46,409 bases of DNA from an uncultured Nitrosomonadales bacterium. GTDB lineage: Bacteria; Pseudomonadota; Gammaproteobacteria; Burkholderiales; Gallionellaceae. Below are positions 13,036 through 34,347 of the stretch, in pieces; within the stretch, counting starts at the first letter, position 1; each line of letters begins with the position of its first letter. The notes under the pieces were generated by a model, which saw only the letters and a program-made list of their open reading frames with translations, was not told where the DNA came from and did not search any database. Position numbers and translations under genes: made by a program. Location of the stretch: contig CAIWRI010000075.1 in the NCBI GenBank assembly GCA_903915035.1, positions 1 through 46,409 of the forward strand, given 5' to 3'.

Positions 13036-15386
13036 GCACGCTCCACAGTGATTGTTCCAAACATCGCACCCAGCAAAGCGGTGGCCGGATGACCTGCAGC
13101 GATACGCACCGCACCTGCCGGCACGCCCTCATCGGCCTGCACCGTCAATTGGGCACTTGCATTACCCTGTGTCACTTTGATGGCATCGCCTGCTTGCAAT
13201 CCCAGTTTTTGCAATTCGCTGTTATTCAATTTTACGCAAGGTACAGCGCTGTCATTGGTCTTTTGCAGGGAATCGGCACGACGAACCAACGCATCAGAGA
13301 AGTAAATCGGCACATCAGTCACACGTTGCAGAGCAGCGGGTGAGCTAGTGACAACTTCAAATTTCACACCTGAAGTAAGGTTGCCTAACTTGTCGGAAAT
13401 GGTGATTCCCTTGAGTGCTTCATCGCGAACCGCTTCACTCGAATCGTAATCAAAGCCCGTCACATTCAACAAATTACCCAATACGCGCAGCACTTTCCAG
13501 GCAGGACGCGCCTCAGCCAACGGCTTGACTGCCCCCTTGAAACTTTGTGCTATACCAGCTGTATTGATGAAAGTACCGGATGTTTCAGTGAAAGGCGCAA
13601 TGGGCAACATCACATCTGCATATTCAAGCCCCTGATGCTTGAAGGCTGACATACATACCACCATATCGGCGTCCTTCATCGCCTTCATCGCCAGTTGCGG
13701 GTTGTGCATATCCAATTCCGGCTCAACATTCAGCAATAAGTAAGCTTTGCGAGGATTTTCCAGCACCTCAGCGGCATTCATGCCATGCACTGAACCTGCA
13801 AAAGGAACAGCTTCTGCCAAATACCCGCCGACACTGTTTGCCGCTTCGCCGAGAAAACCAAATTTAGCACCACACAGTTGCGCAATTTGCTCGGCAAACG
13901 AAGCTATCTGCACCGCCTGAGGATGTTGCTGTGCAAAATTACCCAGCAATACGGCAACTTGTTTACCACCTGCCAGACTTGCTGCAATTTTTGCTGCCGC
14001 GTCAGAGACAGTCAACGAAACAAGCAATGCCTGTATTTCGTCTGACAATTTAACCTGCTTTGTACTGGCCAGTGCTTTTAAAACCTGTGCCAGCGTGCTA
14101 ACGAGCTCGGCAGGCGTTACGATAGCCTGGTTGGCAACCGGCATCAGCAAATCATCAGCGGCTGAATGAACGATACTCACCTGGGCACCGTGTTTCACAG
14201 CCTGACGGATACGCTGTGCCAGCAAAGGATGATCCTTGCGCAAAAAACTACCTGCGATAAGAAAACGGTCGCAGCCATTGATTTCGCTAACTGGCATCCC
14301 TAACCAGGGCGTACCGCTTTGTTTACCGTCTGCACTGAAATCAGACTGGCGTAAGCGGAAGTCCACATTGCCACTGCCTATGCCGCGCATCAGTTTTTGC
14401 AACAGGTACAGCTCTTCAAAAGTAGCGTGCGGCGTAGCCAGCGCGGCGATATTCTCAGCTCCTGCACTCTGGGTGATCTGGCGCAAGCCATTGGCAACAT
14501 ATTCAAGCGCGGCGACCCATTCAACTTCAATCCAATTCCCGCCTTGCTTGATCATCGGACGGGTCAGGCGTTCAGCAGAGTTCAATGCTTCATAACTGAA
14601 GCGGTCTTTATCTGAAATCCAGCATTCATTGATCGCGTCATTTTCGACAGGAACCACACGAACGACTTTATTGTCTTTGACATGCACTGCAAGATTCGAT
14701 CCCAAGCCATCATGCGAACTAACCGATTTGCGACGCGATAATTCCCAGCTGCGAGCTTTGTAACGGAAAGGTTTGCTGGTCAAGGCACCAACCGGGCACA
14801 GATCAATCATGTTGCCGGACAATTCGGAATCAACAGAGCTGTTTACAAAGCTCATAATTTCTGCATGTTCGGAACGATTGGCCATACCCAATTCCATGAT
14901 ACCTGCAATTTCCTGGCCGAAACGCACGCAACGGGTGCACTGAATGCAGCGGCTCATTTCATGCGTTGAAATCAATTCACCGATTTCTTTTGGATGTATC
15001 ACGCGTTTTTCTTCGTTGTAGCGCGATGCGCCGCCACCGTAACCTACTGCAAGATCCTGCAACTGACATTCACCGCCCTGATCGCAAATCGGGCAATCCA
15101 ACGGATGATTTATCAGCAGAAATTCCATTATGCCCTTCTGGGCTTTGACTGCCATGTCGGAATGGGTGTGCACCTTCATGCCCTCGGCTGCAGGGGTCGC
15201 ACAGGCAGGTAAGGGTTTGGGCGCTTTTTCCACTTCGACAAGACACATCCGGCAATTAGCCGCGATGGACAATTTCTTGTGGTAACAAAAATGCGGAATA
15301 TATACGTCGGCTTTATGAGCCGCGTCCATTATTGTTGAACCTTTTGCAGTTTCAACCAATTTACCATCAATTTCAATGTTGATCAT
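13032..15386 (-). CDS. nuoG: NADH-quinone oxidoreductase subunit G
   Basis: A 784-residue peripheral-arm subunit that carries the electron wire. The N-terminal 2Fe-2S ferredoxin domain has C34, C45, C48 and C62. Next come the His-ligated 4Fe-4S site H94/C98/C101/C107 (in [14 protein letters not shown]) and a second 4Fe-4S site C147/C150/C153/C197 (CIQCTRC ... DLCPVG). The rest is a molybdopterin-oxidoreductase-like domain without an obvious molybdenum ligand, as usual for NuoG. The stop codon overlaps nuoH. Confidence 0.96.
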
Positions 15387-20987: not shown

Positions 20988-21740
20988 TTATTGTGCTGCT
21001 TTACAAATTGCCACAAAATCATTCGCCACCAATGACGCACCACCAATCAGCCCGCCATCAATATCCGGCATACTGAACAATTCAACCGCATTACCCGGCT
21101 TCACGCTACCTCCGTACAAAATACATAAATTTTGTGCTACACCCGCATCATAGCCCGCTACACGCTGACGAATAAAAGCATGCACAGCTTGCGCCTGATC
21201 CGCGCTTGCGGTCTTACCTGTGCCAATTGCCCAAACCGGCTCATAGGCAACCACGGCATTTTTGAGCACCGTTGCGCCAAAGCGTACCAGCACTGCATCA
21301 AGCTGACCGGCAACAACCTGTTCAGTAACGCCGGACTCGCGTTCAGCCAGTGTTTCACCGACACAAAAAATCGGTTTCAAACCGGCTTTTTGTGCGGCTT
21401 CAAATTTTTCAGCCGTGATTTCATTACTTTCATGAAACAGCCCGCGACGCTCCGAGTGACCGATAATAACAACAGTGCAACCAAAATCGGTCAACATACC
21501 AGCAGCAACCTCACCGGTATAGGCGCCTTCCTGTTGAGTACTCAGATTCTGAGCACCCCATGCAAGATTGCTACCTGCCAGCAAAGTTTGCGCTTGAGAC
21601 AAATAAGGGAATGGAACACAAACAGCATAATCAGCCTTGACCAATTCACTGACACCATTCAATACATCCTGCAATAGCGCCTGATTAGCAACCAGACCAC
21701 CATACATTTTCCAATTCCCAACGACCAGTTTGCGACGCAT
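20988..21740 (-). CDS. tpiA: Triosephosphate isomerase
   Basis: A 250-residue TIM-barrel enzyme that interconverts dihydroxyacetone phosphate and glyceraldehyde 3-phosphate in glycolysis, gluconeogenesis and the Calvin cycle. Catalytic residues are visible: K11 (GNWKM), H95 (IIGHSERR) and E167 (VAYEPVWAIGTG, followed by loop 6). The phosphate-binding LYGGSVKPGN and DIDGGLIGGASL motifs are near the C-terminus. A good sigma-70 promoter lies immediately upstream, and secG follows. Confidence 0.97.
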   Translation of the reverse strand: MRRKLVVGNWKMYGGLVANQALLQDVLNGVSELVKADYAVCVPFPYLSQAQTLLAGSNLAWGAQNLSTQQEGAYTGEVAAGMLTDFGCTVVIIGHSERRGLFHESNEITAEKFEAAQKAGLKPIFCVGETLAERESGVTEQVVAGQLDAVLVRFGATVLKNAVVAYEPVWAIGTGKTASADQAQAVHAFIRQRVAGYDAGVAQNLCILYGGSVKPGNAVELFSMPDIDGGLIGGASLVANDFVAICKAAQ

Positions 21741-22942: not shown

Positions 22943-23119
22943 CTAATCATGCTCAGTCTTGCAATGCCCTTCACAGTGCTTGCCGCAGCCACCACACCCC
23001 AGCTTGCGTGCAGGGCCGAATTCAGGGTGGCGACGGGCAAAATGCTGCGCCAGTCGTTCAACCGCCAGCCAACCCAGCAGCATAGCCAGCAACAAACTTA
23101 TCGTAACAAGATAAATCAT
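22943..23119 (-). CDS. Small Cys-rich membrane protein coupled to rnfA (NqrM-like layout)
   Basis: A 58-residue protein. Residues 1-20 form one membrane helix (MIYLVTISLLLAMLLGWLAV), followed by a basic amphipathic stretch and a C-terminal cysteine cluster CGGCGKHCEGHC (C43, C46, C50, C54) with two His. Its ATG overlaps the rnfA TGA (ATGA), so it is translationally coupled as the last gene of the rnf operon. The layout, one helix followed by CGG and further cysteines, recalls NqrM, a factor needed to build the Fe centre between NqrD and NqrE, which are homologues of RnfA and RnfE. A role in loading Fe or 2Fe-2S into RnfA/RnfE is my inference; sequence similarity to NqrM is limited to this layout. 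That the frame is a real gene seems likely from the coupling. Confidence 0.75.
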   Translation of the reverse strand: MIYLVTISLLLAMLLGWLAVERLAQHFARRHPEFGPARKLGCGGCGKHCEGHCKTEHD

Positions 23120-23703
23120 TCTCCGCCGCCAATGCCGGCGAAGCCCATGAAGGACAGTGAAAGCAGACCACCCAGAATTACGCTGATCGCAGCGCCCTGT
23201 ACCAGCGTTGGCACATTGGATAACTGCATGCGCTCACGCAAGCCGGCCATCAAAATTAAAGCCAGCGTAAAACCGGCGCCACCGCCAATGCTGTAGGCGA
23301 GCGATTGTGCGAAGGAGTAATTTCGCGCCGTTTGAAACAGGGCAACTCCCAGCACCGCACAGTTGGTGGTAATCAGCGGCAGGTAAATACCCAACTGCCG
23401 GAACAGCACGGGAAAGGTCTTTTTTACGAACATTTCAACGAGTTGTACAGTGCAAGCGATCACCGTAATAAAGGTAATCACGCTCAAAAATTCCAGATGA
23501 AAATGCACCAGCAGCATGTTCAGAAAATACGCCGAAACTGAAGCGACCAGAATCACGAAGGCGGTGGCAATCCCCATAGGGACTGCGGTGCTAAGCTTTT
23601 GCGATACACCCAGGAAAGGGCACATGCCCAGAAACATCGCCAGCACAAAATTGCCGGGCAATATCGTGGTCAGCAGAATATTCGCGACAGTGTCGTTATT
23701 CAT
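23116..23703 (-). CDS. rnfA: Ion-translocating electron transport complex subunit RnfA
   Basis: A 195-residue six-helix membrane protein, homologous to NqrE. RnfA and RnfE form an inverted pair in the membrane that coordinates a 2Fe-2S cluster between them; candidate ligand regions are MCPFLGVS near residue 28 and TNCAVLGV near residue 112. Start overlaps the rnfE stop by 4 bases and the stop overlaps the small Cys-rich gene. Here rnfA is at the end of the operon, unlike E. coli rsxABCDGE where it is first. Confidence 0.95.
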   Translation of the reverse strand: MNNDTVANILLTTILPGNFVLAMFLGMCPFLGVSQKLSTAVPMGIATAFVILVASVSAYFLNMLLVHFHLEFLSVITFITVIACTVQLVEMFVKKTFPVLFRQLGIYLPLITTNCAVLGVALFQTARNYSFAQSLAYSIGGGAGFTLALILMAGLRERMQLSNVPTLVQGAAISVILGGLLSLSFMGFAGIGGGE

Positions 23704-24326
23704 GATGGCACTCCCTGAATGCGTTTGCTTTTATACTGCTCGAAGGCGGCAAAGACGATCAGCCATCCGGCCAGCACGAAAAAACCGCCGGGCGGCAACA
23801 CCATTACCACCCAGGGCTGGAAGTGTTCTCCGAACAGGGAAATGCCGAACAATTTGCCGGCGCCCAGAATTTCTCGCACGCAACCGATGGCGAATAATCC
23901 CAGCGTAAATCCAAAGCCCATGCCGATGGCGTTGAATGTAGCAGGCAAGGGCGGATTTTTGGCAGCATGCGCCTCGGCACGCCCAAGCAAGATGCAATTA
24001 GCGACGATCAGTTTGATGTAGGCACCCAGCGCTTCATAAAGGTCAAGACTGATCGCTTGAATCGCATAGTCCACCACCGTGACGAAGGTGGCGATGATAA
24101 GGATATAACTGGCGATGCGCACCTGCTTAGGGATGGCATGACGCAGCAGCGATACCAGCAGACAGGAGGCACCCAGCACAAAGGTGGTAGCCAGCCCCAT
24201 CGAAATGGCGTTGACTGCGGATACCGTTACGGCGAGGGTGGGGCACATGCCCAGCACCATCACGAAGATGGGATTCTGTTTCCAGATACCGTCCAGAAAT
24301 TCATCAAAATTTGAAGGTACACTCAT
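23700..24326 (-). CDS. rnfE: Ion-translocating electron transport complex subunit RnfE
   Basis: A 208-residue six-helix membrane protein, homologous to NqrD and partner of RnfA. The two Cys-containing loops MCPTLAVT (near residue 27) and ANCILLGR (near residue 109) are present. Starts within the rnfG stop codon (4-base overlap) and overlaps rnfA by 4 bases. Confidence 0.95.
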   Translation of the reverse strand: MSVPSNFDEFLDGIWKQNPIFVMVLGMCPTLAVTVSAVNAISMGLATTFVLGASCLLVSLLRHAIPKQVRIASYILIIATFVTVVDYAIQAISLDLYEALGAYIKLIVANCILLGRAEAHAAKNPPLPATFNAIGMGFGFTLGLFAIGCVREILGAGKLFGISLFGEHFQPWVVMVLPPGGFFVLAGWLIVFAAFEQYKSKRIQGVPS

Positions 24327-25003
24327 GATGCTTTCCTCAGTTTATCAAGTTGCGGCAGCAGTCTGGGCAACAGGGCCTGTGCTGACTCATTGATACCCCG
24401 TCCGACAGCCTTGGACGTGACGGTCGCGCCTGAAATCGCGTCGATCTGCCAGAGACCCGACCTGGTGCCGTGTTTAACCGTCTTCACCGCGTTGGCAAGA
24501 CTTTGCAGGTCGGCGGATAAATGCACATCCAGTGCTGCAAAATTTTCCAGGAATGCCTTATCAGTCAGTATTCTGTCACCAATACCCGGTGTTTCGCGCA
24601 TGGAAATCACACCTATGCCGGTAATGACTTGCTTTTCAGGATCATACGCATACAACACGCGCACCTGATCGGCATATCCGGCGGAAGACGCTTCTGCAGC
24701 AATTCCCATCAATTTCTTTGCTGAATCATACACAGCATAAAAAACAACGGCGTCCGAAGGTGGTTTGTCGTGACCTTGGGCTGCGATAATGCCTTTGCCG
24801 GTTGCGTAGTAAGTAACTACGTTTTTGGCATCGGGCAGTATCTTGAACACTTGTCGCTCAAGCGCGAGTTTCCGGTTTGCATCTGCTGCCGGCAAGGTGA
24901 ACTGATAGATGCCAACGATGATAATGCCGCAGATGACCGATACCAGTCCCAGCGCGCGCACCATCTCAAAACTGGAAGTCTGTTTTTCCTTAGTATCGCT
25001 CAT
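24323..25003 (-). CDS. rnfG: Ion-translocating electron transport complex subunit RnfG
   Basis: A 226-residue protein with an N-terminal membrane anchor (about residues 16-36) and a periplasmic FMN-binding domain. The flavinylation motif DAISGATVTS is at 188-197, with T194 as the expected attachment site of covalent FMN. The flavin transferase ApbE, which makes this bond, is not encoded in the window. Overlaps both neighbours by 4 bases. Confidence 0.95.
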   Translation of the reverse strand: MSDTKEKQTSSFEMVRALGLVSVICGIIIVGIYQFTLPAADANRKLALERQVFKILPDAKNVVTYYATGKGIIAAQGHDKPPSDAVVFYAVYDSAKKLMGIAAEASSAGYADQVRVLYAYDPEKQVITGIGVISMRETPGIGDRILTDKAFLENFAALDVHLSADLQSLANAVKTVKHGTRSGLWQIDAISGATVTSKAVGRGINESAQALLPRLLPQLDKLRKAS

Positions 25004-26037
25004 GACTTACTTCCTTTGGCACCGAGGACGCGGGGCTGGTTGAACTGATCGAGCAATGGCGCCGTCGCGTTGGCTATCAAAATAGCATACATCACACCTT
25101 CGGTGAGCCCGCCAAAATAGCGGATCATCACAGTCAGAATACCGATCAGCGCGCCGTACAGCCAGATGCCACGCGGCGTAATCGGCGAACTCGCCATATC
25201 GGTTGCCATGAACCACGCGCCCAGCATCAACCCGCCGGACAGCAACATAAAAGAAGGACTGGGATAGCGTGCAGGCTGAGCAAGATGAAAAAGCCATGAA
25301 AGCAGCGTCACACTACCCATCACCGCGACGGGAATGCGCCAGTCGAGAAACTTTCTGACTGCCAGATACAGGCCGCATAGCAGAATCAGGATGGCTGATG
25401 TCTCCCCCGCACAGGCGGTCACTTGTCCGGTCAGAAATTCCATGGCAGAGGCCGCGACATTTTCGAACTTCCAGCGCGCCAGCGGCGTCGCACCGGTAAA
25501 AGCATCCAGGCCCTGCAATTTTATCCAGTGTTTGATGTCAGGCGGCAACATGAACGGTGCGGTCAGCGTTGTCGGGATGAAGCCGGCAAAGCGATTTAGT
25601 GAGAAAGCAGGCACCCAGGTGCTGATCGCGGTCGGAAAAGCCGCCTGAACAAAAGCACGCCCGATCAGCGCAGGGTTGAACGGGTTTTGCCCCAAACCAC
25701 CGAACAGCGACTTGCCCAGCCAGATTGCCGACAAACCGGCCACCGCCCCCATCCATAACGGAAAAGAAGGCGGCAATGTCAGCGCCAGCAGAATGCCTGT
25801 GATGACGGCACTCCAGTCAGACAGCGTACTTGCTGTGCCAGACACGAAGTTGTTGATGCGTTCAGCCAGAAGACAGGCCAGCGTGACCACCAGGATCAGG
25901 GCGGCGGCTGACAAGCCATATTGCCAGACTGAAAAAACGCAGATTGGCAGCAGGGCATACACCACATTACGCATAATGACGGGCACATCGTTGCCACTGT
26001 GCTGGTGGGGAGCTGCACGTAACTCGGTATGGCTCAT
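25000..26037 (-). CDS. rnfD: Ion-translocating electron transport complex subunit RnfD
   Basis: A 345-residue multi-helix membrane subunit, homologous to NqrB. The covalent FMN motif DAFTGATPLA is at about 178-187, with T184 as the likely attachment residue. The conserved FGGLGQNPFNPALIGRAF segment (about 112-129) is intact. It carries a short hydrophilic N-terminus before the first helix. Overlaps rnfC and rnfG by 4 bases each. Confidence 0.95.
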   Translation of the reverse strand: MSHTELRAAPHQHSGNDVPVIMRNVVYALLPICVFSVWQYGLSAAALILVVTLACLLAERINNFVSGTASTLSDWSAVITGILLALTLPPSFPLWMGAVAGLSAIWLGKSLFGGLGQNPFNPALIGRAFVQAAFPTAISTWVPAFSLNRFAGFIPTTLTAPFMLPPDIKHWIKLQGLDAFTGATPLARWKFENVAASAMEFLTGQVTACAGETSAILILLCGLYLAVRKFLDWRIPVAVMGSVTLLSWLFHLAQPARYPSPSFMLLSGGLMLGAWFMATDMASSPITPRGIWLYGALIGILTVMIRYFGGLTEGVMYAILIANATAPLLDQFNQPRVLGAKGSKS

Positions 26038-27371
26038 GCTGCGGTTTTCCTATCTTTAAGAAAAGACTTGGCTACGCGAAATTGTTGCACAAGAGGGATG
26101 TGCGAGGGGCACACATAGCTACAGCAACCGCATTCGAAGCATTCAGCAAGGAAAAATTGATCTGCCATCAATTCATACTCGCGCTTGGCAGCCAGCATGC
26201 CCATCTGCGTAGGATTAAGCTTTTTAGGGCAAGCCTTGACACACTTACCGCAGTGGATGCAAGGGTAAGTACGTTGCTCAGTGTCATCCTTCTTGCCGAA
26301 AGCCAGCACCCCGCATACGCCTTTGGTAACGGGAGTATCCAGTGAAGCTATCGCGATCCCCATCATCGGTCCGCCTAAAATCACTTCTTTGGCACGGCTC
26401 TTTGCACCCACAGAGTCAAGCAAAAAGTGCAATGGTGTACCCAGCGGTACGATGTAGTTGCCCGGCCTGTCGACTGCGGGACCTGCGACAGTCACGACGC
26501 GCTCGGTCATGCCTTCACCCAGCGGCAGCAGTTTGCCGACATAGGCCATGGTCATCACATTGTTCATCACCACACCGATCGAGGAACTGCGTTTGCCGAC
26601 GGGCACTTCGCGCCCCAGCAGGGTATACGTCAACGTCTCAGCCGCGCCCTGAGGATATTTTGTTTCCACCACTTTGACCGTGACACTGCCGTCGCCGGGC
26701 AATGCGGCGGTCAGTGCGGCAATGGCATCGGGCTTGTTATCTTCCACGCCGATGATGGCGCGCGGCGCACCACACACCCGGCGTGCAAAGTCTATTCCCG
26801 TCATGATGTGCTGGGCACGCTCCACCATGATGCGGTGATCACAAGTCAGAAAAGGCTCGCATTCAGAGCCATTCACAATCAGCGTGTCGATCACGCAGCC
26901 GTTAGGGGGTATCAGTTTGGCATGGGTCGGAAAGACTGCGCCGCCTTTGCCAGCCACACCGATCTGCTGCATGATCATCGCCAACGCTACGCCCGTCAAT
27001 CCGTCCAGATTTTGCGGGTTACGCACCCGGATTTCCTGACCGTCCGCTTGATACACGCGAATGATAATCGCCATTTCCATTGCGCCACTGTCGGACGGGA
27101 CGGGCAAGATAGCTTCGACGATACCCGTTGCAGGCGCATGTATCGGCAGGGAGAACATCCCGTCCGCCTTTGCAATGACCTCGCCGCGCAGTACTTCCTG
27201 GCCCACCCGGACGATCGCAATCGCGGGTTTCCCGACATGTTGAGACAAAGGCACGTACAGCTTTGGCGCGAACGGTAATCTTTGAATCGGCAAGCTTCCG
27301 GTCTCCTTGTGATAGTCCGGATGGATGCCGTGTTCAAAAGTCGCCACGCGTTTTTTAAAAAAAGAGCTCAT
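26034..27371 (-). CDS. rnfC: Ion-translocating electron transport complex subunit RnfC
   Basis: A 445-residue peripheral subunit that exchanges electrons with NAD(H), homologous in part to NuoF and NqrA. The nucleotide-site motif GVAGKGGAVFPTH is at about 139-151, and two CxxCxxCxxxCP motifs are at C371/C374/C377/C381 (CIHCGKCVKACP) and C411/C414/C417/C421 (CFECGCCSYVCP). The ATG at 27371 is preferred because it lies one base after the nifJ stop and gives the family N-terminus; the frame is open 17 codons further into nifJ. The long gammaproteobacterial C-terminal repeat tail is absent, as in the compact clostridial form. Confidence 0.95.
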   Translation of the reverse strand: MSSFFKKRVATFEHGIHPDYHKETGSLPIQRLPFAPKLYVPLSQHVGKPAIAIVRVGQEVLRGEVIAKADGMFSLPIHAPATGIVEAILPVPSDSGAMEMAIIIRVYQADGQEIRVRNPQNLDGLTGVALAMIMQQIGVAGKGGAVFPTHAKLIPPNGCVIDTLIVNGSECEPFLTCDHRIMVERAQHIMTGIDFARRVCGAPRAIIGVEDNKPDAIAALTAALPGDGSVTVKVVETKYPQGAAETLTYTLLGREVPVGKRSSSIGVVMNNVMTMAYVGKLLPLGEGMTERVVTVAGPAVDRPGNYIVPLGTPLHFLLDSVGAKSRAKEVILGGPMMGIAIASLDTPVTKGVCGVLAFGKKDDTEQRTYPCIHCGKCVKACPKKLNPTQMGMLAAKREYELMADQFFLAECFECGCCSYVCPSHIPLVQQFRVAKSFLKDRKTAA

Positions 27372-27372
27372 A

Positions 27373-30300
27373 TCAATGGAACTTTGCAGCCCGCAGTTCA
27401 AGTTTTCCGAGATTGGCCTCATTCATATTCCACGGTGTTCCGGGATGAATGATGCCCGCAGTGCATTTTTCTGCCGCCTTGACGATATCGAGGAAACTGC
27501 CCGCCTTTGGATTGATGACGACGGCTTTCTTTGAGGTATCATAAGCAAATATTTTCGGGTTGATATTGATGCATTCGTCGCATGCGGTGCATTCGGGTGT
27601 ATCGACGTAAGCCTGTTCATAATCTGCTGCGGCAGCCGTTTCGGGTGTTGCCTGGGGCTTTGCAGTCGAAACCGTGCCGGTTATACCTGCCGAGAGCTGC
27701 TGTATCAATTCCTGACGTACCCGGTTAGCAATGGCCGTTTCGTCTACTTCAGGACGACCGATACCCGCTATGCCCTTGAGTTGCTGCCAGAAATTTTGGC
27801 GTTCCTCGCAGGATAAAACCATTTCAACCGAGACCAGTACGCGTAGCAGGCGGTTCTTCTTGTCCACAGACCAGATGAACGGAAACTTGCCCTCGCGTTC
27901 AGCGTCAGAAAGATCGAGGAAATCGCCCAGCAACACCATGTCGCCATTCCAGGTTTCCGGTGGTGCCTTCTTGAATTGTTTAGCAAAACGTCCTTCCGAG
28001 AGTGCGAAATCCGCGAAGGTCAGCGGCAGTGTAAATGTCTTCTTATCCCCGGACTCATCAATATAATCCAGATTATAGGTTACCCAGTCAGCTTCAAGTT
28101 CAGGATTACCTTCAAGGCTTACGCATTCGGAGAAGGTCACCCCCAGATCCGGGTTGTAGCGGAACAGTGGAAAGGCGCGCGATTCCACCGCGATTTTACT
28201 TTGAACGACTGCACTGTTGTCACCTACGCCGTGTTCCGGAGGACAGACCGCATATATGTTAAACATGGCAGGACGACGACTGTTCAGACCATCAATAAAG
28301 CTCTCCAGCAGATGTGTGGTGCTGGACAAGGAGCCCTGCATCACATAGGAGGTGCGGTGTGCCATGCCAATCACACTGATTTCCTTGCGATTTTCGGTCT
28401 TACCATGCCGACTGGCACCGTAAGGTGACATATCTGCCACCTGCCCGATAAAGCCGGAAGTACAGGCCTGGCCACCGGTGTTGGAATACGCCTGCGTGTC
28501 GACGATCAGAATCTTGATCGGTTTGCCTGACATCAGCGCGCGCGACAGATTCTGGAAGCCGATATCAAACATCGCACCGTCGCCGCCGATCGCTACGACC
28601 GGTGGACACAGTTGCCATTCTTCGTCGCTTAATTGTTCCCAGTTAAAGTGTGCAAAGTCCGAATCACTTTGTTCAGCATCATAGCCGCCATCCAGTTCCA
28701 TCTCGACCATGCGCACGGCCTTGAAGCCTTCCGCCATCCTGGCCATATGACCTTCGAACACACCCATCGCCACAGAAGGTGAATCCTGGAACAGATTTGA
28801 TGTCCACGGAAAAGGATAGGGATTGAACGGGAAGGTGGAAGCCCACACTGATGAGCAACCGGTGGAATTGATGACCCCCATCTCCGCGCGACCGTTTTTG
28901 CTCGGCCCTTCCAGGTAACGCCAGCGTAAATCCTTCAATTTTTCAAGCAGTTGTGTAACACGTCGTAACCATTGCGGATCAATGGGTTGACCTGTTTGTG
29001 ATTGCAACAGACTGGCAGATAGATTCGCCAGCGTCAGATCACGTCCGGCGTGAGCCGCAATCGCCAGCTTTAATCCGTCAATATCGGTCAGATTGACGCT
29101 CGCGCTGAGCTTCATTGTTACATGCGTTTCCAGATTCGCGATCAGCGTATCGAGCTTGCCCAGAAACTTTTTCACGCGTGGTTGCATCAGCGCCGTCACT
29201 GTGCTGGTGAACAGATGAATAGTCGATTTTTCGCCACAACCCAGACACGCGCCGTCACCACTGACCAGGGAATTGTAGTTTTTCTTGTCAAGCAACAATG
29301 TTTCCAGCGCGCCTATTTTTTCGTCCAGATCATCAATGCGACTGTACTGTGGCGGCGTGGTGGGCAAGTTCAACCAGAAATTCCAGTCTGAACGTAACGT
29401 TTCAATACTTTCAGGTGTTTGCGTGACCATGGTCAGCGCGTTATCGCTACAAACGTCCACGCAAATTGCACAGCCCTTACAAGTGTAAGGATTAATGGTA
29501 ATCGAGTACAGTCCGCCGCTGCCTTTTTCCTTCTTTTCCTTTAAATTCCAGTATGGTTTGGTGGTAGCAAACTTAAAACTGCCCAGGCCATCGCGCAATA
29601 AGTCTAGTTCTGCCTCAAGACGTGTACGGTCATCACCCTGAACCGGATCTTCAGTAAAGGCTTCAGTGATAGCGTTAGCCAGCAGTGCGCGGGCATCAAG
29701 CCCCTCACGATCCAGCGCATTGCGCAATTTTTTCTCAATCACTCGGCTGAACTTGCGCAGAAAACGGGTGGGGCGTCCGCTGGTTTCGATTTTCTGCACG
29801 ACACTGTTCAGCACATCGGAAACAGTCGATACCAGCCCCGGGATGGCGCTATCAGGACACTGGGTGTAACACTCGCCACAGGCGGTGCATTTCTCGGCAA
29901 TCCACTGGGGATGCTCGAAGCGAACCCCTGTCATGTCACGGTATACACCCGTGACAGCCGGAATCACCGAAAGCCCCATGAACGGATCGACCAGATTATC
30001 CGAGCCTTGTCCTTTCATGTAAAAACTGCCGGTCGCCTCCCAGAAACGGTGGATGTCGGAGATGCCGCCGTCCCCCTCGGGCAAATGCTTCAACATGATA
30101 GGCAATGTGGCTGCTGGCTTTGCAGTGACTTTAGCGCGCTGACCGACTTTCATCTGATCCACGGCGATTTCGAAAAGGTCTTCATAGCCGCGACGTACCA
30201 CGCGCAGATTGTCCGCGACGATGCGCTTGCCCTTATTGCCGAACTTGGCTTCCAACTGGTTTTCGATCGCGGTGAATAACATGTCTTCGCTAAGCCCTGC

Positions 30301-32289
30301 GCGCTCCTTGACATCTGAAGCCCTGAAAAATGCCCCCTGAAAGGCGTTGCCCTGCATACGCAGTTGCAGTTCGACATTGGAAGATTCTTCGCGCGCGATC
30401 TTGAACGCATCAAGGAAGAAGACACGGATCCTGTTATCCGCGATGTATTTCTGGATATACACGGGGAAGGTCTCCCAAAGCGCATCGCAGCTGCCCAGAT
30501 TGCTCTGAATGATAAATACGCCGCCGCTTTTCAGGCCGTCCAGTGCATTGGTATGCAGGAAAACTTGCGGATCAGGCGATAACACGACATCGACGTGGGT
30601 ATATTCGCAGTTGATGCGGATGGGTTCGGGTGCGGCTGACAGATAGTAGGTTGTCGGCTGTCCCTTCTTTTCCGAGCCGTATTTAGGATTGGCCTTGATA
30701 TCCCAGCCCAGCAATTCAAACAGCGTCATCGCCAGATTTTTACCGGTGGTCACCGCCCCCCAGCCGCCGATTGAGTGCATACGCACGGCGATCGCACCCT
30801 TGGGCAACAGATTCGGATTTTCTGAGCCGCGCAGCGCCATTGCCTTGATATCAGGGTAACCGGCCTGCAAGGTCTGCTGGCGAATCTCCTGTTTAGGCGT
30901 AACGGATTCGTCGCGAACGAAATCGACTGACAGATAATAAAATTTTCGGTGGGCCGCATCAGGCAGCATGTTTTCCACCGCTGCAATCAGGCCTTCCGGT
31001 TGCAAGTCGCGTGAACCCAGGCCGTAGCAGCCGGAATACAGGATCGGCATGTCTTTGACGTTGTTGTAAGAAGCATAGCCGGTATAGCAATCTTCACGAC
31101 CATTTTCCAGACACTTGGATACCGTGGAGCGCACTTCACGCATCAGCGGCAAGTCTTCCGACAAAGGCTGATCGGTACGTTCCAGTACCGCCACGCACTT
31201 CTTGCCTTTTAGTACATGCCCCAGCAGATCGCCCGGAAAGGGGCGGAACATGGTCATATTGACCACACCGACTTTAATCTTGCGGTTTTCACGCAGCCAG
31301 TCGGCAACCGCTGCAGCCTGTACCGTCATGCTGCCTTGCCCTAAAATCACATAGTCTGCGTCATCGCAGCGGTAAGCATCGATACGATGATAACGGCGTC
31401 CTGTAAGGGCATAAAATTCATCCATACAACGGTCGGCAAGTTCCGGAATATGTTCGAAGAAATACGGGCGTTGTGCTGCTACCGCTTGCATGTAGGCATC
31501 CTGGTTCGCAACTCCGCCGGTCATCATCGGGTTGTCGACGTCCCAATTCGATGGCACACGGCGTCGTTTGGGGCCGTAGAGCATTTTTTGCGCTGGCGTG
31601 GGGGTATCAATGATGTCATCTGCGGCCCCCAGGAACTCAGCAATTAACGCGCGTTCCGGCACTTGCATTGGTTCGATAAGATGCGTAGTCAGAAAACCAT
31701 CCTGCGCCACCATGGCGGGGGTGAGTGAGAGCTCGGCAGTCTTGCGACCGATCATGTTAAGATCGGCCGCTTCTTGAGCATTTTTTGCCATAATCTGAAT
31801 GAAGCCCGTGTCGTCGGCACAGTGATAGTCATCGTGCGCGCAATGCACATTCAACGTCACCTTGGTGATGGCGCGACAGCCCAGATTCAGTACATAAGGC
31901 AGGCGTTTTCCAACGGCGGCATAGAGCGATTCGTGCATGAAGGCTAAGCCCTGCGACGAAGTGAAGTTGACCGCGCGCAAGCCTGTCATGGCAAGTCCTG
32001 CCGTCACCCCGGCGGCGGCATGTTCGGATTCAGGTTCAACAAAAATCAACGGCTTTCCGGCGGCATTCAAATGTCCCCTAGCGACTTCTTCAGCCCAGTA
32101 TTCACCCATCTGTGTGGAAGGTGTAATCGGGTATGCGCCCGCACCTTGCGAGGCTTCGCGCTCCACCATGATCACGGCGGTATTGCCGTCGATCGCATCA
32201 CGCGTACCGGGGTACTTGAATTGAATTGCGCCGGCTTCAGAGTCAGCCCTTGCTCCGAAAAGTTTGAATTGTTTAAGTTTGCTAATCAT
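27373..32289 (-). CDS. nifJ: Pyruvate:ferredoxin oxidoreductase, long form with C-terminal ferredoxin domain
   Basis: A 1638-residue 2-oxoacid:ferredoxin oxidoreductase, much longer than the usual 1170-1200. It links pyruvate and CoA to acetyl-CoA, CO2 and reduced ferredoxin. Visible in order: the alpha domain with YPITPSTQMGEYW (about 53-65), the gamma domain (GGWGAVTTGKNLA, about 530), a two-cluster ferredoxin domain with C801/C804/C807/C811 and C937/C940/C943/C947, the proximal cluster start at C1015/C1018, the thiamine diphosphate site G1236-D1237-G1238 with NTGGQ downstream, and a C-terminal ferredoxin-like CTACDEC at C1567/C1570/C1573 plus a Cys near 1609. About 100 extra residues separate the two ferredoxin motifs, and another 100 follow C1018. 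It lies 8 bases after rnfB and one base before rnfC, so it is an internal gene of the rnf operon. The gene symbol is used in the broad sense; specificity for pyruvate is inferred. Confidence 0.93.
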   Translation of the reverse strand: MISKLKQFKLFGARADSEAGAIQFKYPGTRDAIDGNTAVIMVEREASQGAGAYPITPSTQMGEYWAEEVARGHLNAAGKPLIFVEPESEHAAAGVTAGLAMTGLRAVNFTSSQGLAFMHESLYAAVGKRLPYVLNLGCRAITKVTLNVHCAHDDYHCADDTGFIQIMAKNAQEAADLNMIGRKTAELSLTPAMVAQDGFLTTHLIEPMQVPERALIAEFLGAADDIIDTPTPAQKMLYGPKRRRVPSNWDVDNPMMTGGVANQDAYMQAVAAQRPYFFEHIPELADRCMDEFYALTGRRYHRIDAYRCDDADYVILGQGSMTVQAAAVADWLRENRKIKVGVVNMTMFRPFPGDLLGHVLKGKKCVAVLERTDQPLSEDLPLMREVRSTVSKCLENGREDCYTGYASYNNVKDMPILYSGCYGLGSRDLQPEGLIAAVENMLPDAAHRKFYYLSVDFVRDESVTPKQEIRQQTLQAGYPDIKAMALRGSENPNLLPKGAIAVRMHSIGGWGAVTTGKNLAMTLFELLGWDIKANPKYGSEKKGQPTTYYLSAAPEPIRINCEYTHVDVVLSPDPQVFLHTNALDGLKSGGVFIIQSNLGSCDALWETFPVYIQKYIADNRIRVFFLDAFKIAREESSNVELQLRMQGNAFQGAFFRASDVKERAGLSEDMLFTAIENQLEAKFGNKGKRIVADNLRVVRRGYEDLFEIAVDQMKVGQRAKVTAKPAATLPIMLKHLPEGDGGISDIHRFWEATGSFYMKGQGSDNLVDPFMGLSVIPAVTGVYRDMTGVRFEHPQWIAEKCTACGECYTQCPDSAIPGLVSTVSDVLNSVVQKIETSGRPTRFLRKFSRVIEKKLRNALDREGLDARALLANAITEAFTEDPVQGDDRTRLEAELDLLRDGLGSFKFATTKPYWNLKEKKEKGSGGLYSITINPYTCKGCAICVDVCSDNALTMVTQTPESIETLRSDWNFWLNLPTTPPQYSRIDDLDEKIGALETLLLDKKNYNSLVSGDGACLGCGEKSTIHLFTSTVTALMQPRVKKFLGKLDTLIANLETHVTMKLSASVNLTDIDGLKLAIAAHAGRDLTLANLSASLLQSQTGQPIDPQWLRRVTQLLEKLKDLRWRYLEGPSKNGRAEMGVINSTGCSSVWASTFPFNPYPFPWTSNLFQDSPSVAMGVFEGHMARMAEGFKAVRMVEMELDGGYDAEQSDSDFAHFNWEQLSDEEWQLCPPVVAIGGDGAMFDIGFQNLSRALMSGKPIKILIVDTQAYSNTGGQACTSGFIGQVADMSPYGASRHGKTENRKEISVIGMAHRTSYVMQGSLSSTTHLLESFIDGLNSRRPAMFNIYAVCPPEHGVGDNSAVVQSKIAVESRAFPLFRYNPDLGVTFSECVSLEGNPELEADWVTYNLDYIDESGDKKTFTLPLTFADFALSEGRFAKQFKKAPPETWNGDMVLLGDFLDLSDAEREGKFPFIWSVDKKNRLLRVLVSVEMVLSCEERQNFWQQLKGIAGIGRPEVDETAIANRVRQELIQQLSAGITGTVSTAKPQATPETAAAADYEQAYVDTPECTACDECININPKIFAYDTSKKAVVINPKAGSFLDIVKAAEKCTAGIIHPGTPWNMNEANLGKLELRAAKFH

Positions 32290-32297
32290 GATTTTTC

Positions 32298-33179
32298 CTA
32301 GACTTCAAGCGGGGCTGGTAATGACTCGATACGGATGATTTTTTTGGCAGATTTACCTTTGAAGGTGAGTCCGCCCTCAAACCAGACGATAGCACCGGTA
32401 GGACAGCGCTCAATGGCGACACGATTGTCCAGCGCATTTTTTTCGTAATCAATGACGGCGAGATTCTTTTCCAGACGGATTAGTTCAGGTGTGCCATCGA
32501 CCACACAGCGACCGCACGCAGTACAGGCGACTTCACAGGCGGCCTCCGCTGCATCAGGTTCATCCTCATTGCGGCATGCTATCCATAGTTTTTTTGTAAC
32601 ACCATGAATAAAAAAAAGATTTTTAGGACAAATGTCGACGCAGTCACCGCAAGCCGTACACTTTGCCAGATCGACGACAGGTAAACCGTGACGGTCAATC
32701 ACAATCGCGTCAAAATTGCACACATCGGCACAATCGCCCAGCCCCAGACATCCCCAACTGCAATTTTTCCCGCCCCCGCCTGCCACAGACGCGGCACGAC
32801 AGGAAGTCAATCCCCTGTAACGGGCGCGCATTTTGGCAACGTGATGACCACCTGCGCAAGCCAGACGGGCAACGCGTTTTTCCACATTACCCATTGCAAC
32901 ACCCAGCAGGGCGGCGATGTGTTTATTTTGTTCGGCGGTATTAACGGTGCAAGAAGCGGGTTCGATTTGGCCTGCGACCGTCTGTTCAGCGAAATTACGA
33001 CATCCTGCGGTGCCGCAAGCCCCGCAATTGGCGTGCGGAAGCAATTCTTCGACCAGATCAATACGGGGATCTTCGTACACATAGAGCCGCTTACTTGCGA
33101 TAGACAGGAAAAATGCGAGCAATCCCCCGAGACAGGCCATAAACGCTGCCGTGACAAGCATGCTGTAAGCTGTTCCCAT
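32298..33179 (-). CDS. rnfB: Ion-translocating electron transport complex subunit RnfB, long (clostridial-type)
   Basis: A 293-residue subunit thought to take electrons from ferredoxin. An N-terminal membrane helix (about 5-27) is followed by the 4Fe-4S domain with C52, C55, C60 and C77 (NCGACGTAGC). Then come a ferredoxin pair, C140/C144/C150/C154 and C174/C177/C180/C184, and a second pair, of which only C219/C222/C225 and C259 remain. The long layout with SWGCLGLGDC resembles clostridial and deltaproteobacterial RnfB and not the short E. coli RsxB. In the last pair, the motif-2 triplet is replaced (YEKNALDNRV) and the motif-1 fourth Cys is missing, so one cluster there is predicted lost. 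It is the first gene of the operon, divergent from a LysR gene. Confidence 0.93.
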   Translation of the reverse strand: MGTAYSMLVTAAFMACLGGLLAFFLSIASKRLYVYEDPRIDLVEELLPHANCGACGTAGCRNFAEQTVAGQIEPASCTVNTAEQNKHIAALLGVAMGNVEKRVARLACAGGHHVAKMRARYRGLTSCRAASVAGGGGKNCSWGCLGLGDCADVCNFDAIVIDRHGLPVVDLAKCTACGDCVDICPKNLFFIHGVTKKLWIACRNEDEPDAAEAACEVACTACGRCVVDGTPELIRLEKNLAVIDYEKNALDNRVAIERCPTGAIVWFEGGLTFKGKSAKKIIRIESLPAPLEV

Positions 33180-33393: not shown

Positions 33394-34347
33394 ATGAATA
33401 CAGGCAAGCAGAGTTATTACAAGAACAATCGCCTGAAACAAATGCGTGCATTTTGTGAAGTGGTTCGCTCAGGCAGTGTGACATTGGCCGCACAGAAACT
33501 TTTTCTGAGTCAACCTTCGGTATCCTTGCAGATACAGGCCATGGAACGTGAACTAGGTGTAAAGGTGTTCGAACGGCGCGGACCGGTTCTCAAACTAACG
33601 CCTGACGGCGGCGTGCTATATGCGCTGGCCAAACCGCTGCTGGAAGGTATAGATAGCCTGCAGGAAAACTTCACCGCGCAGCATGGCAAACTGGAGTCTG
33701 GCGAACTGAATATCGGTGCGGGTGAATCTACTATTTTGTACATATTGCCGGAAGCTGTGCGCAGGTTTGTCACTGCTCATCCACGAATTCAACTCAAAAT
33801 CCACAATAAAACAGGGCGCGACGGACTGAAGATGTTGCGTGCCGACGAAATTGATTTTGCTGTTGGCTCGCTACTGGACATTTCCAAGGACATTTTCTAC
33901 CAGCCTGTAGTGACATTTGATCCTGTGCTAATCACGCCACCGGATCATCCACTGGCAAAATTGAAAAATGTCACGCTTGAAGATATCAGTCATTACGGAT
34001 TGATTCTGCCGCCGCGTCACCTTTCGACGTGGCTTATGGTCAAGTACGTGTTCCAGCAGCACAACCTGACTGCCACTGTAACGCTGGAAGCAGGCGGTTG
34101 GGAGGTGATCAAAAAGTATGTGGAGCTCGGTATGGGCATCTCCATCGTGACCGACATCTGCTTGACCGGAGCCGAGAAGCTGGCGCGCATTCCGCTTAAA
34201 CAATATTTTCCTCAGCGAGACTACGGTCTGGTCTTGCGCAAAGGTAAATTTCTGTCACCTCAGGCGAGACGGTTTGTCGCGATACTTAAGGAAATTTATG
34301 GTATTGAAGATGCCCCAACGGAAATCACTATTTCAAATCAGCACTAA
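33394..34347 (+). CDS. LysR-family regulator, CysB-like
   Basis: A 317-residue LysR-type regulator. The winged helix-turn-helix covers about residues 14-73 (QMRAFCEVVRSGSVTLAAQKL, then SQPSVSLQIQAMERELG and VFERRGP). The effector-binding domain (about 100-310) has the style of the CysB/Cbl group, including GAGESTILYILPEAVRRF and GMGISIVTDICLTG. It is transcribed away from rnfB with 214 bases between the start codons, so by the usual LysR rule it probably controls the rnf-nifJ operon and itself. The effector is unknown. The start at 33394 has only a weak ribosome binding site; a terminator follows at 34409. Confidence 0.9.
   Translation: MNTGKQSYYKNNRLKQMRAFCEVVRSGSVTLAAQKLFLSQPSVSLQIQAMERELGVKVFERRGPVLKLTPDGGVLYALAKPLLEGIDSLQENFTAQHGKLESGELNIGAGESTILYILPEAVRRFVTAHPRIQLKIHNKTGRDGLKMLRADEIDFAVGSLLDISKDIFYQPVVTFDPVLITPPDHPLAKLKNVTLEDISHYGLILPPRHLSTWLMVKYVFQQHNLTATVTLEAGGWEVIKKYVELGMGISIVTDICLTGAEKLARIPLKQYFPQRDYGLVLRKGKFLSPQARRFVAILKEIYGIEDAPTEITISNQH

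Follow-up and report, generated by a model that had tools for sequence, protein, structure and literature searches.

Single-chain pyruvate:ferredoxin oxidoreductases (PFORs) are represented in the Protein Data Bank (PDB) by the enzymes of Desulfovibrio africanus (1b0p, 7plm) and Moorella (6cin) and are described by the model TIGR02176, and an Rnf operon with the order rnfBCDGEA has been given for Bacteroidetes and Chlorobi (PMC3534657). Here we describe an operon that combines a PFOR gene with such a set of rnf genes on a 46,409-nucleotide stretch of DNA (hereafter the window), which is contig CAIWRI010000075.1 (C75 in our numbering) of the 3.16-Mb genome of an uncultured Nitrosomonadales bacterium of the Gallionellaceae (GCA_903915035.1; G000). 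We think it likely, from the gene order and the protein sequences, that this operon encodes one functional unit in which a single-chain PFOR with its own tethered ferredoxin would feed its electrons into a dedicated Rnf pump by way of RnfB.

We found a similar arrangement mentioned once. A genome paper of 2014 on the Solemya velum symbiont states in one sentence that PFOR genes lie between rnfB2 and rnfC2 of the rnf2 operon, with pyruvate as a possible electron donor (PMC4287430). This was the only statement of that order retrieved by full-text searches, and passages of a 2025 Rnf review retrieved by keyword (PMC12174285) make no mention of it. In the Riftia symbiont Endoriftia a 'PFOR-like' gene and a dimeric 2-oxoglutarate oxidoreductase (OGOR, korAB) are both less expressed when H2S is limiting, and the paper places Rnf in a cluster with genes of the reductive tricarboxylic acid (rTCA) cycle (PMC11636981). 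Elsewhere, Rnf has been tied to nitrogenase in Sideroxydans (PMC5178258), listed separately from korAB in Thiomargarita (PMC4914600) and called of unknown function in Gallionellaceae in a 2023 pangenome paper (PMC10734462). Mutants of rnf in Desulfovibrio alaskensis gave lower yields on pyruvate, and another study cited in the same paper saw no effect (PMC4841214). For a ferredoxin-PFOR fusion or a catalytically dead PFOR, no description was found in full-text searches, whose scope left out most subscription papers and supplements. A ferredoxin-tethered PFOR, probably wired into Rnf, together with a sister family whose PFOR body appears to be a pseudoenzyme, is a new combination of known parts.

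A long PFOR with a fused ferredoxin and its conserved place in rnf operons

The operon occupies positions 22943-33179 of the minus strand and comprises eight genes in the order rnfB-nifJ-rnfC-rnfD-rnfG-rnfE-rnfA followed by a gene for a 58-residue Cys-rich protein. A preliminary description of the window had reported eight genes on one strand, with 4-base overlaps or gaps of at most 8 bases and with nifJ lying between rnfB and rnfC, and the coordinates confirm each of these points. The rnfB gene (32298-33179) encodes a 293-residue protein of the long type, with an N-terminal FeS domain (PF04060) and 4Fe-4S domains, and is separated by an 8-base gap from nifJ (27373-32289). The longest open reading frame (ORF) of rnfC begins at 27422, and the ATG at 27371 gives a gene (26034-27371; TIGR01945, 465 bits, above cut-off) that follows nifJ after a single base. 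Compared with the rnfBCDGEA operons, the window operon has all six subunits in the same order and adds the PFOR gene after rnfB and the small Cys-rich gene after rnfA.

The preliminary description had overlooked that the nifJ product is 1,638 residues long and ends in a ferredoxin domain. Single-chain PFORs in the PDB have 1,171-1,232 residues, which makes the window protein some 400 residues longer. It consists of POR_N, PFOR_II and POR domains, two 4Fe-4S motifs, a TPP_enzyme_C domain, a linker and the C-terminal ferredoxin, and POR_N, PFOR_II, POR and TPP_enzyme_C all score above the Pfam gathering score. The single-chain enzymes share these domains, the YPITP motif, both domain V clusters, the proximal cluster and the thiamine motif, and the window protein differs from them by extra stretches, the linker and the ferredoxin. 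The thiamine motif, the substrate-site Glu and Arg, the four cysteines of the proximal cluster and the two domain V clusters are all kept, with residue roles assigned after the D. africanus structure. The complete set of catalytic and Fe-S residues was also present in all eight further proteins examined from operons of this kind, which we call type I. With the equivalog model for NifJ, TIGR02176, the long PFOR scores 421 bits (cut-off 911), and by its sequence it is not a standard NifJ. Pyruvate is inferred as its substrate from the conserved YPITP motif and Arg 139 only.

The fused ferredoxin (27376-27624, minus strand; residues about 1556-1638) is a single-cluster [4Fe-4S] domain with Cys 1567, 1570, 1573 and 1609, and residues 1562-1615 match Pfam Fer4_13, the ferredoxin I family, above cut-off. 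By sequence the tail matches D. africanus ferredoxin I (1dax, E 2e-4) and by fold it matches 1fxr (E 0.008, TM-score 0.85 on the target, root-mean-square deviation 0.8 over 58 columns), so that the CxxCxxC...C motif of ferredoxin I and, in a predicted model, its fold are both present. D. africanus ferredoxin I, for which a PFOR of the same organism is also in the PDB, is a free protein, whereas the ferredoxin of the window is part of the enzyme chain. The AlphaFold2 model covers residues 785-1638 only and was built with 50 sequences (49 of the 75 available homologues), with a mean pLDDT of 81.6. Between the PFOR body and the ferredoxin lies a predicted flexible linker (27625-27675, minus strand; residues about 1539-1555), which is a variable Ala/Pro/Gly-rich stretch in the homologue alignment. 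Its pLDDT is below 50 (fragment residues 755-771), as predicted for a flexible tether, and three other short segments are equally low.

To describe the distribution of the operon we used a set of loci obtained with a peptide pattern in named genomes, which gave at least 597 stretches, at least 580 of them encoding some relative at E 1e-3, not necessarily of type I. The best 80 of these and two plasmid loci (Persicobacter and Gemmatirosa) make up the 82 closest loci to which the following counts refer; weaker relatives may be less uniform. Apart from four loci cut before the ferredoxin, PFOR and ferredoxin share one reading frame in 77 of 78 loci, which rules out a chance fusion. The full four-Cys motif is found in 76 of the 78, the exceptions being L085, which is cut, and L108. 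The gene directly upstream of nifJ is rnfB in 72 of the 75 loci with room, and rnfC lies downstream of nifJ in all 67 loci. This gene order is far beyond chance. The S. velum symbiont rnf2 operon has the PFOR at the same position, and a gill symbiont record of S. velum is L098 in our set; the passages that report that operon name neither the ferredoxin fusion nor the spread of the arrangement (PMC4287430). In L098 rnfB matches in two overlapping pieces, and this and the shift of the ferredoxin part to another frame may come from decay, separate genes or a sequencing error.

According to record titles, the loci belong to Gallionellaceae, Rhodocyclaceae, purple sulfur bacteria, Sedimenticola, Shewanella, Acidobacteria, Verrucomicrobia, Kiritimatiellae, Myxococcota, Calditrichaeota, Bacteroidetes and others. 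The nearest named relatives, with nifJ up to 91% identical, are metagenome-assembled genomes (MAGs) of Gallionellaceae or Gallionellales and two 'Proteobacteria' MAGs. In its own family, 41 of 150 genomes match the long PFOR at E 1e-100, and in a sample of its class 15 of 274 genomes have matches with an identity of 55% or more (contig ends interrupt four of them), the source genome being included in both counts. One match of the class scan, that of G218, has an internal stop, which is residue 2 of the match. As to the genome survey that the preliminary description had suggested, nifJ is found between rnfB and rnfC in several phyla. Its statement that the system is unusual for a betaproteobacterium does not hold, in view of the family count and of the many Rhodocyclales and purple sulfur bacteria among the record titles. 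Its comparison of the gene order with the clostridial one is right in that the order is a rotation of the clostridial order, but B-C-D-G-E-A is already the variant of Bacteroidetes and Chlorobi (PMC3534657). The order with nifJ, presented there as little described, is common across genomes, and in the literature that we found it is stated in one sentence of one paper (PMC4287430).

Comparison of individual loci gave some further observations. Among Gallionellales operons whose nifJ is about equally close to that of the window (77-83%), L035 and L038 are set apart from L033, L034 and L037 in that rnfC to rnfA are either 76-96% or only 52-73% identical to the window genes, and in the Methylotenera locus L064 rnfE and rnfA are close but nifJ is distant. 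Recombination may have taken place at the nifJ/rnfC junction. In L040, L041 and L044 about 750-900 bases separate the rnfC and rnfD matches, perhaps occupied by an extra gene.

Type II operons and split cousins

A second kind of operon, type II, is represented by nine loci (L115, L116, L121-L124, L154-L156) in nine genomes. Distant relatives of the long PFOR occur in six of the 274 class genomes (G034, G098, G102, G167, G218 and G219), of which G167 and G218 also have type I. The 1,464-residue G167 protein was then used as query against 39 of the 80 named-locus genomes, which led to a type II cluster in two Sedimenticola MAGs (G286, where the contig ends after rnfB and nj2, and G288) and, in divergent form, in the Calditrichaeota MAG G306. 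Up to the contig ends, the order is korA-korB-nj3-rnfB-nj2-rnfC. The nj2 gene encodes a homologue of the long PFOR (the PFOR body, with open frames of 1,264-1,603 residues) and lies between rnfB and rnfC in all seven loci with a visible rnfC. The nj3 product (about 800 residues) resembles the C-terminal half of the long PFOR; the type I ferredoxin motif is present in eight of eight loci, and L115 has its ferredoxin in a 98-residue frame of its own. KorAB is often encoded with succinyl-CoA synthetase (sucCD, which separates nj2 from rnfC in four of those seven loci) and sometimes with a malate dehydrogenase-like gene (mdh-like, after rnfA in two loci). The genes rnfD, G, E and A follow rnfC in five loci, and L123 ends inside rnfG. 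L156:12887-14272 holds a 380-residue minus-strand ORF after rnfC, and a 20-residue match to the RnfC end recurs past this ORF (14213-14272), as would be left by an insertion at this place.

In nine of nine loci nj2 has lost the YPITP motif, the thiamine motif and all four cysteines of the proximal cluster, although the alignment of L156 is poor. Eight of the nine retain every one of the eight domain V cysteines, and the L156 protein has no CxxCxxCxxxC motif whatsoever. Judged by these residues the type II PFOR body appears to be a pseudoenzyme. In contrast, KorB motifs are present in eight of eight loci and the KorA YPITP in the six examined, and the KorAB 2-oxoacid oxidoreductase is apparently intact. 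The presence of such a body in these operons suggests that it serves as an Rnf adaptor, wanted at Rnf even without catalysis. In Endoriftia, the PFOR-like and korAB genes may, by analogy, belong to a type II operon; the passages that report them describe neither a dead PFOR nor its place in an rnf operon (PMC11636981).

In a tree of 53 chosen rows, types I and II form one clade each and are joined (98/91) apart from split cousins and classical PFORs; the type II branches are long, so a long-branch warning applies, and L156 was left out as it fell below the score cut. The split cousins (L117-L120), presumably still catalytic, show no ferredoxin domain, and the 11-18 kb of DNA retrieved for them contain no convincing rnf gene, with a single weak RnfB-like match (E 0.002) in L120. 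In a sample of the phylum, 20 of 398 genomes match the type II protein at E 1e-40, three of which are type I (G000, G313 and G718). In the other 17 the match is confined to the N-terminal part of this protein and lies in open frames of 679-709 residues. A distant PFOR fragment was seen in G196 (L125).

Other genes of the operon and of the source genome

All six Rnf subunits (A, B, C, D, E and G) are encoded together in the window, as judged by Pfam domains above cut-off. With NCBIfam models, RnfC, RnfD (25000-26037; TIGR01946, 294 bits) and RnfE (23700-24326; TIGR01948, 223 bits) are above their cut-offs, and RnfA (23116-23703; TIGR01943, 225 bits, cut-off 229), RnfB (63, cut-off 69) and RnfG (24323-25003; TIGR01947, 82 bits, cut-off 102) are below, RnfG having an FMN_bind domain above the Pfam cut-off. 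All these genes are on the minus strand and 4-base overlaps are found at five junctions (C/D, D/G, G/E, E/A and A/small gene).

The small gene (22943-23119, minus strand) encodes a 58-residue protein with one hydrophobic N-terminal stretch and a Cys-rich tail, for which Pfam and NCBIfam give no match at E 0.001 and no Pfam family is above its own cut-off. A small ORF combining a transmembrane stretch with cysteines follows rnfA in 55 of 56 related loci, compared with 37 of 1,120 random positions. The maturation factor NqrM was considered because of a likeness in layout and was rejected, since five of the small proteins have no match to its Pfam family (PF04400) at a limit of E 10, a negative to be read with the fact that HMMER filters drop most weak matches.

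A LysR-type gene (33394-34347, plus strand) is divergent from the operon. Homologues 57-92% identical are found near 20 related operons, with 16 of 62 in a subset of related loci with room, and this gene probably encodes the regulator of the PFOR-Rnf operon. A promoter and terminator scan gave eight promoter-like sites (shuffled mean 8.8) and 22 terminator-like sites (shuffled 12.4); the latter are scattered through coding sequence on both strands and are therefore useless for transcript borders.

The source genome has a second Rnf locus on contig C125 (L159:4457-9520) with the canonical order A-B-C-D-G-E and subunits 24-50% identical to those of the window, and nifH was not found at E 1e-60 in this genome, which is listed as 100% complete. 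In view of both, the window Rnf seems to be a second copy with a special task other than supplying nitrogenase. On contig C112 (L133:3715-8235) there is another POR cluster with gamma, alpha and beta genes and a gene for a 563-residue protein, which by eye is like a GltD-type reductase with a 4Fe-4S tail.

Proposed electron path, direction of flow and significance

The simplest explanation for a PFOR with a built-in ferredoxin, whose gene stands between those of the ferredoxin-accepting RnfB and of RnfC, the NADH subunit, is that this ferredoxin carries electrons from pyruvate to RnfB. The dedicated PFOR-Rnf electron circuit put forward in the preliminary description is supported, at the level of sequence, by the ferredoxin fusion, by the constancy of the gene order and by the existence of type II. 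Electrons would run from thiamine pyrophosphate over the proximal cluster, the two domain V clusters and the tethered ferredoxin to RnfB, and through Rnf to NAD(H), coupled to ion transport. The PFOR body would sit on or near Rnf and free ferredoxin would be used little or not at all. The operon most likely encodes an ion-coupled pyruvate:NAD+ oxidoreductase or pyruvate synthase whose ferredoxin is tethered. We expect it to work both ways, in the oxidative direction as an ion-pumping stand-in for pyruvate dehydrogenase and in the reductive direction as a pyruvate synthase powered by the ion gradient and NADH.

A physical supercomplex of PFOR and Rnf is a plausible prediction. We put forward more tentatively, giving it a little less than an even chance, a whole family of supercomplexes in which a PFOR-derived body is the built-in adaptor of Rnf, type I being a catalyst with a swinging ferredoxin tether and type II a pseudoenzyme connector. 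In type II, the pseudoenzyme with its relay clusters (in L156 perhaps its shape only) would link a separate KorAB to the pump. With such supercomplexes, 2-oxoacids would be decarboxylated oxidatively or carboxylated reductively in direct coupling to ion transport, with no need for free ferredoxin.

Several observations weigh against a conserved unit of this kind. Three of the 75 loci have no whole rnfB directly upstream of nifJ, since rnfB is in two pieces in L068, was not found in L088 and is at the operon end in L113 (plasmid pPP1 of Persicobacter psychrovividus), and in one of 78 loci, that of the S. velum symbiont, the ferredoxin part is in another frame (L098:14578-14658). The modelled half of the PFOR matches PFOR structures at a TM-score of about 0.4 only and is roughly superposed (best E 1.5e-15). 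Among type II loci, korA of L115, which is outside the six examined, matches in three pieces, and in L156 the gene after rnfC is on the minus strand and none of rnfD, G, E and A was found within 6 kb beyond rnfC. Finally, a conserved order can reflect co-regulation alone.

Regarding the direction of flow, we lean slightly to the reductive one for the operon of the source genome, because this genome has pyruvate and 2-oxoglutarate dehydrogenase genes (aceE and sucA are both present) and because phosphoenolpyruvate (PEP) synthase is encoded beside the operon in Gallionellales relatives with long enough contigs. For these operons in general, a mainly reductive role, in which a reverse-driven Rnf gives low-potential electrons to pyruvate synthase for acetate or CO2 assimilation, comes just short of an even chance. 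It would be useful to lithotrophs and purple bacteria unable to make reduced ferredoxin directly, and many carriers are, by name, iron or sulfur oxidisers or purple sulfur bacteria. Ferredoxin-dependent pyruvate synthase was reportedly described in Chromatium extracts in the 1960s. PEP synthase stands beside the operon in L033, L034, L035 and L038 (all Gallionellales) and in L061, L087 and L129, and the source genome has, besides its dehydrogenase genes, the second POR cluster. Against this role, PEP synthase is downstream in only six of 49 loci with room and is not found at the window operon, carriers also occur in Acidobacteria, Verrucomicrobia and Myxococcota, and ATP-citrate lyase is above cut-off in none of 24 genomes. 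An rTCA role through this lyase is thus weakly rejected, as the model may miss other lyase types. A gene for a PetH-like ferredoxin-NADP reductase, downstream of rnfA in 23 of 51 loci, is compatible with either direction and might link the same ferredoxin to NADPH; this count and that of downstream PEP synthase are minimal since the ORF caller used ATG only. Where Gallionellales relatives have PEP synthase, the window has triosephosphate isomerase (20988-21740).

A mainly oxidative role, with pyruvate converted to acetyl-CoA under NAD+ reduction and ion pumping in anoxia or reserve fermentation, is quite possible even if its chances stay rather below even. It is energetically downhill, and pyruvate has been proposed as the electron donor of such an Rnf (PMC4287430). 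Of the 58 genomes that carry one or both operon types, 15 have no aceE above cut-off (the two-subunit form of pyruvate dehydrogenase was not sought), which fits an oxidative role there; 13 of these have type I only, and G034 and G102 have type II only, G102 with a partial match. In addition, four of the nine type II genomes (G102, G219, G288 and G306) lack sucA at E 1e-50, and KorAB-Rnf could replace 2-oxoglutarate dehydrogenase in them. However, aceE is above cut-off in the remaining 43 of the 58 genomes, including the source genome, and the PEP synthase genes by the operons of Gallionellales relatives also speak against a mainly oxidative role.

It is unlikely that the genes are merely co-regulated, sharing an operon for anoxia while a soluble ferredoxin pool carries the electrons and the ferredoxin tail only speeds the reduction of this pool. 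Co-transcription alone can explain the tight spacing, Aquifex soluble ferredoxins exchange electrons with PFOR (PMC10052474), and the fusion is a hint and no proof of contact. However, nifJ keeps its place after rnfB (72/75) and before rnfC (67/67) in several phyla, where loose co-regulation should tolerate other places, and type II operons retain a dead PFOR body at the same place. Electron supply to nitrogenase, as the names nifJ and rnf suggest, is most improbable, because nifH, above cut-off in 25 of 54 type I genomes, is not so in the other 29, the PFOR is far below the nifJ equivalog model, and for the source genome, in which nifH was not found, this role is rejected.

The recurrence of the operon in several phyla points to a direct link between pyruvate chemistry and an energy converter in the membrane. 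If the proposed unit is real, decarboxylating pyruvate and 2-oxoglutarate would itself be a primary ion pump, where the usual coupling is to soluble NADH or free ferredoxin, and in reverse CO2 fixation would be powered straight from the membrane gradient. In microaerophiles, as a matter of speculation, the tethered ferredoxin might shield low-potential electrons from O2. The type II pseudo-PFOR would be a natural experiment in which the adaptor role is separated from catalysis. The operon would thereby offer a testable role for the Rnf of Gallionellaceae, and for that of purple sulfur bacteria and sulfur-oxidising symbionts.

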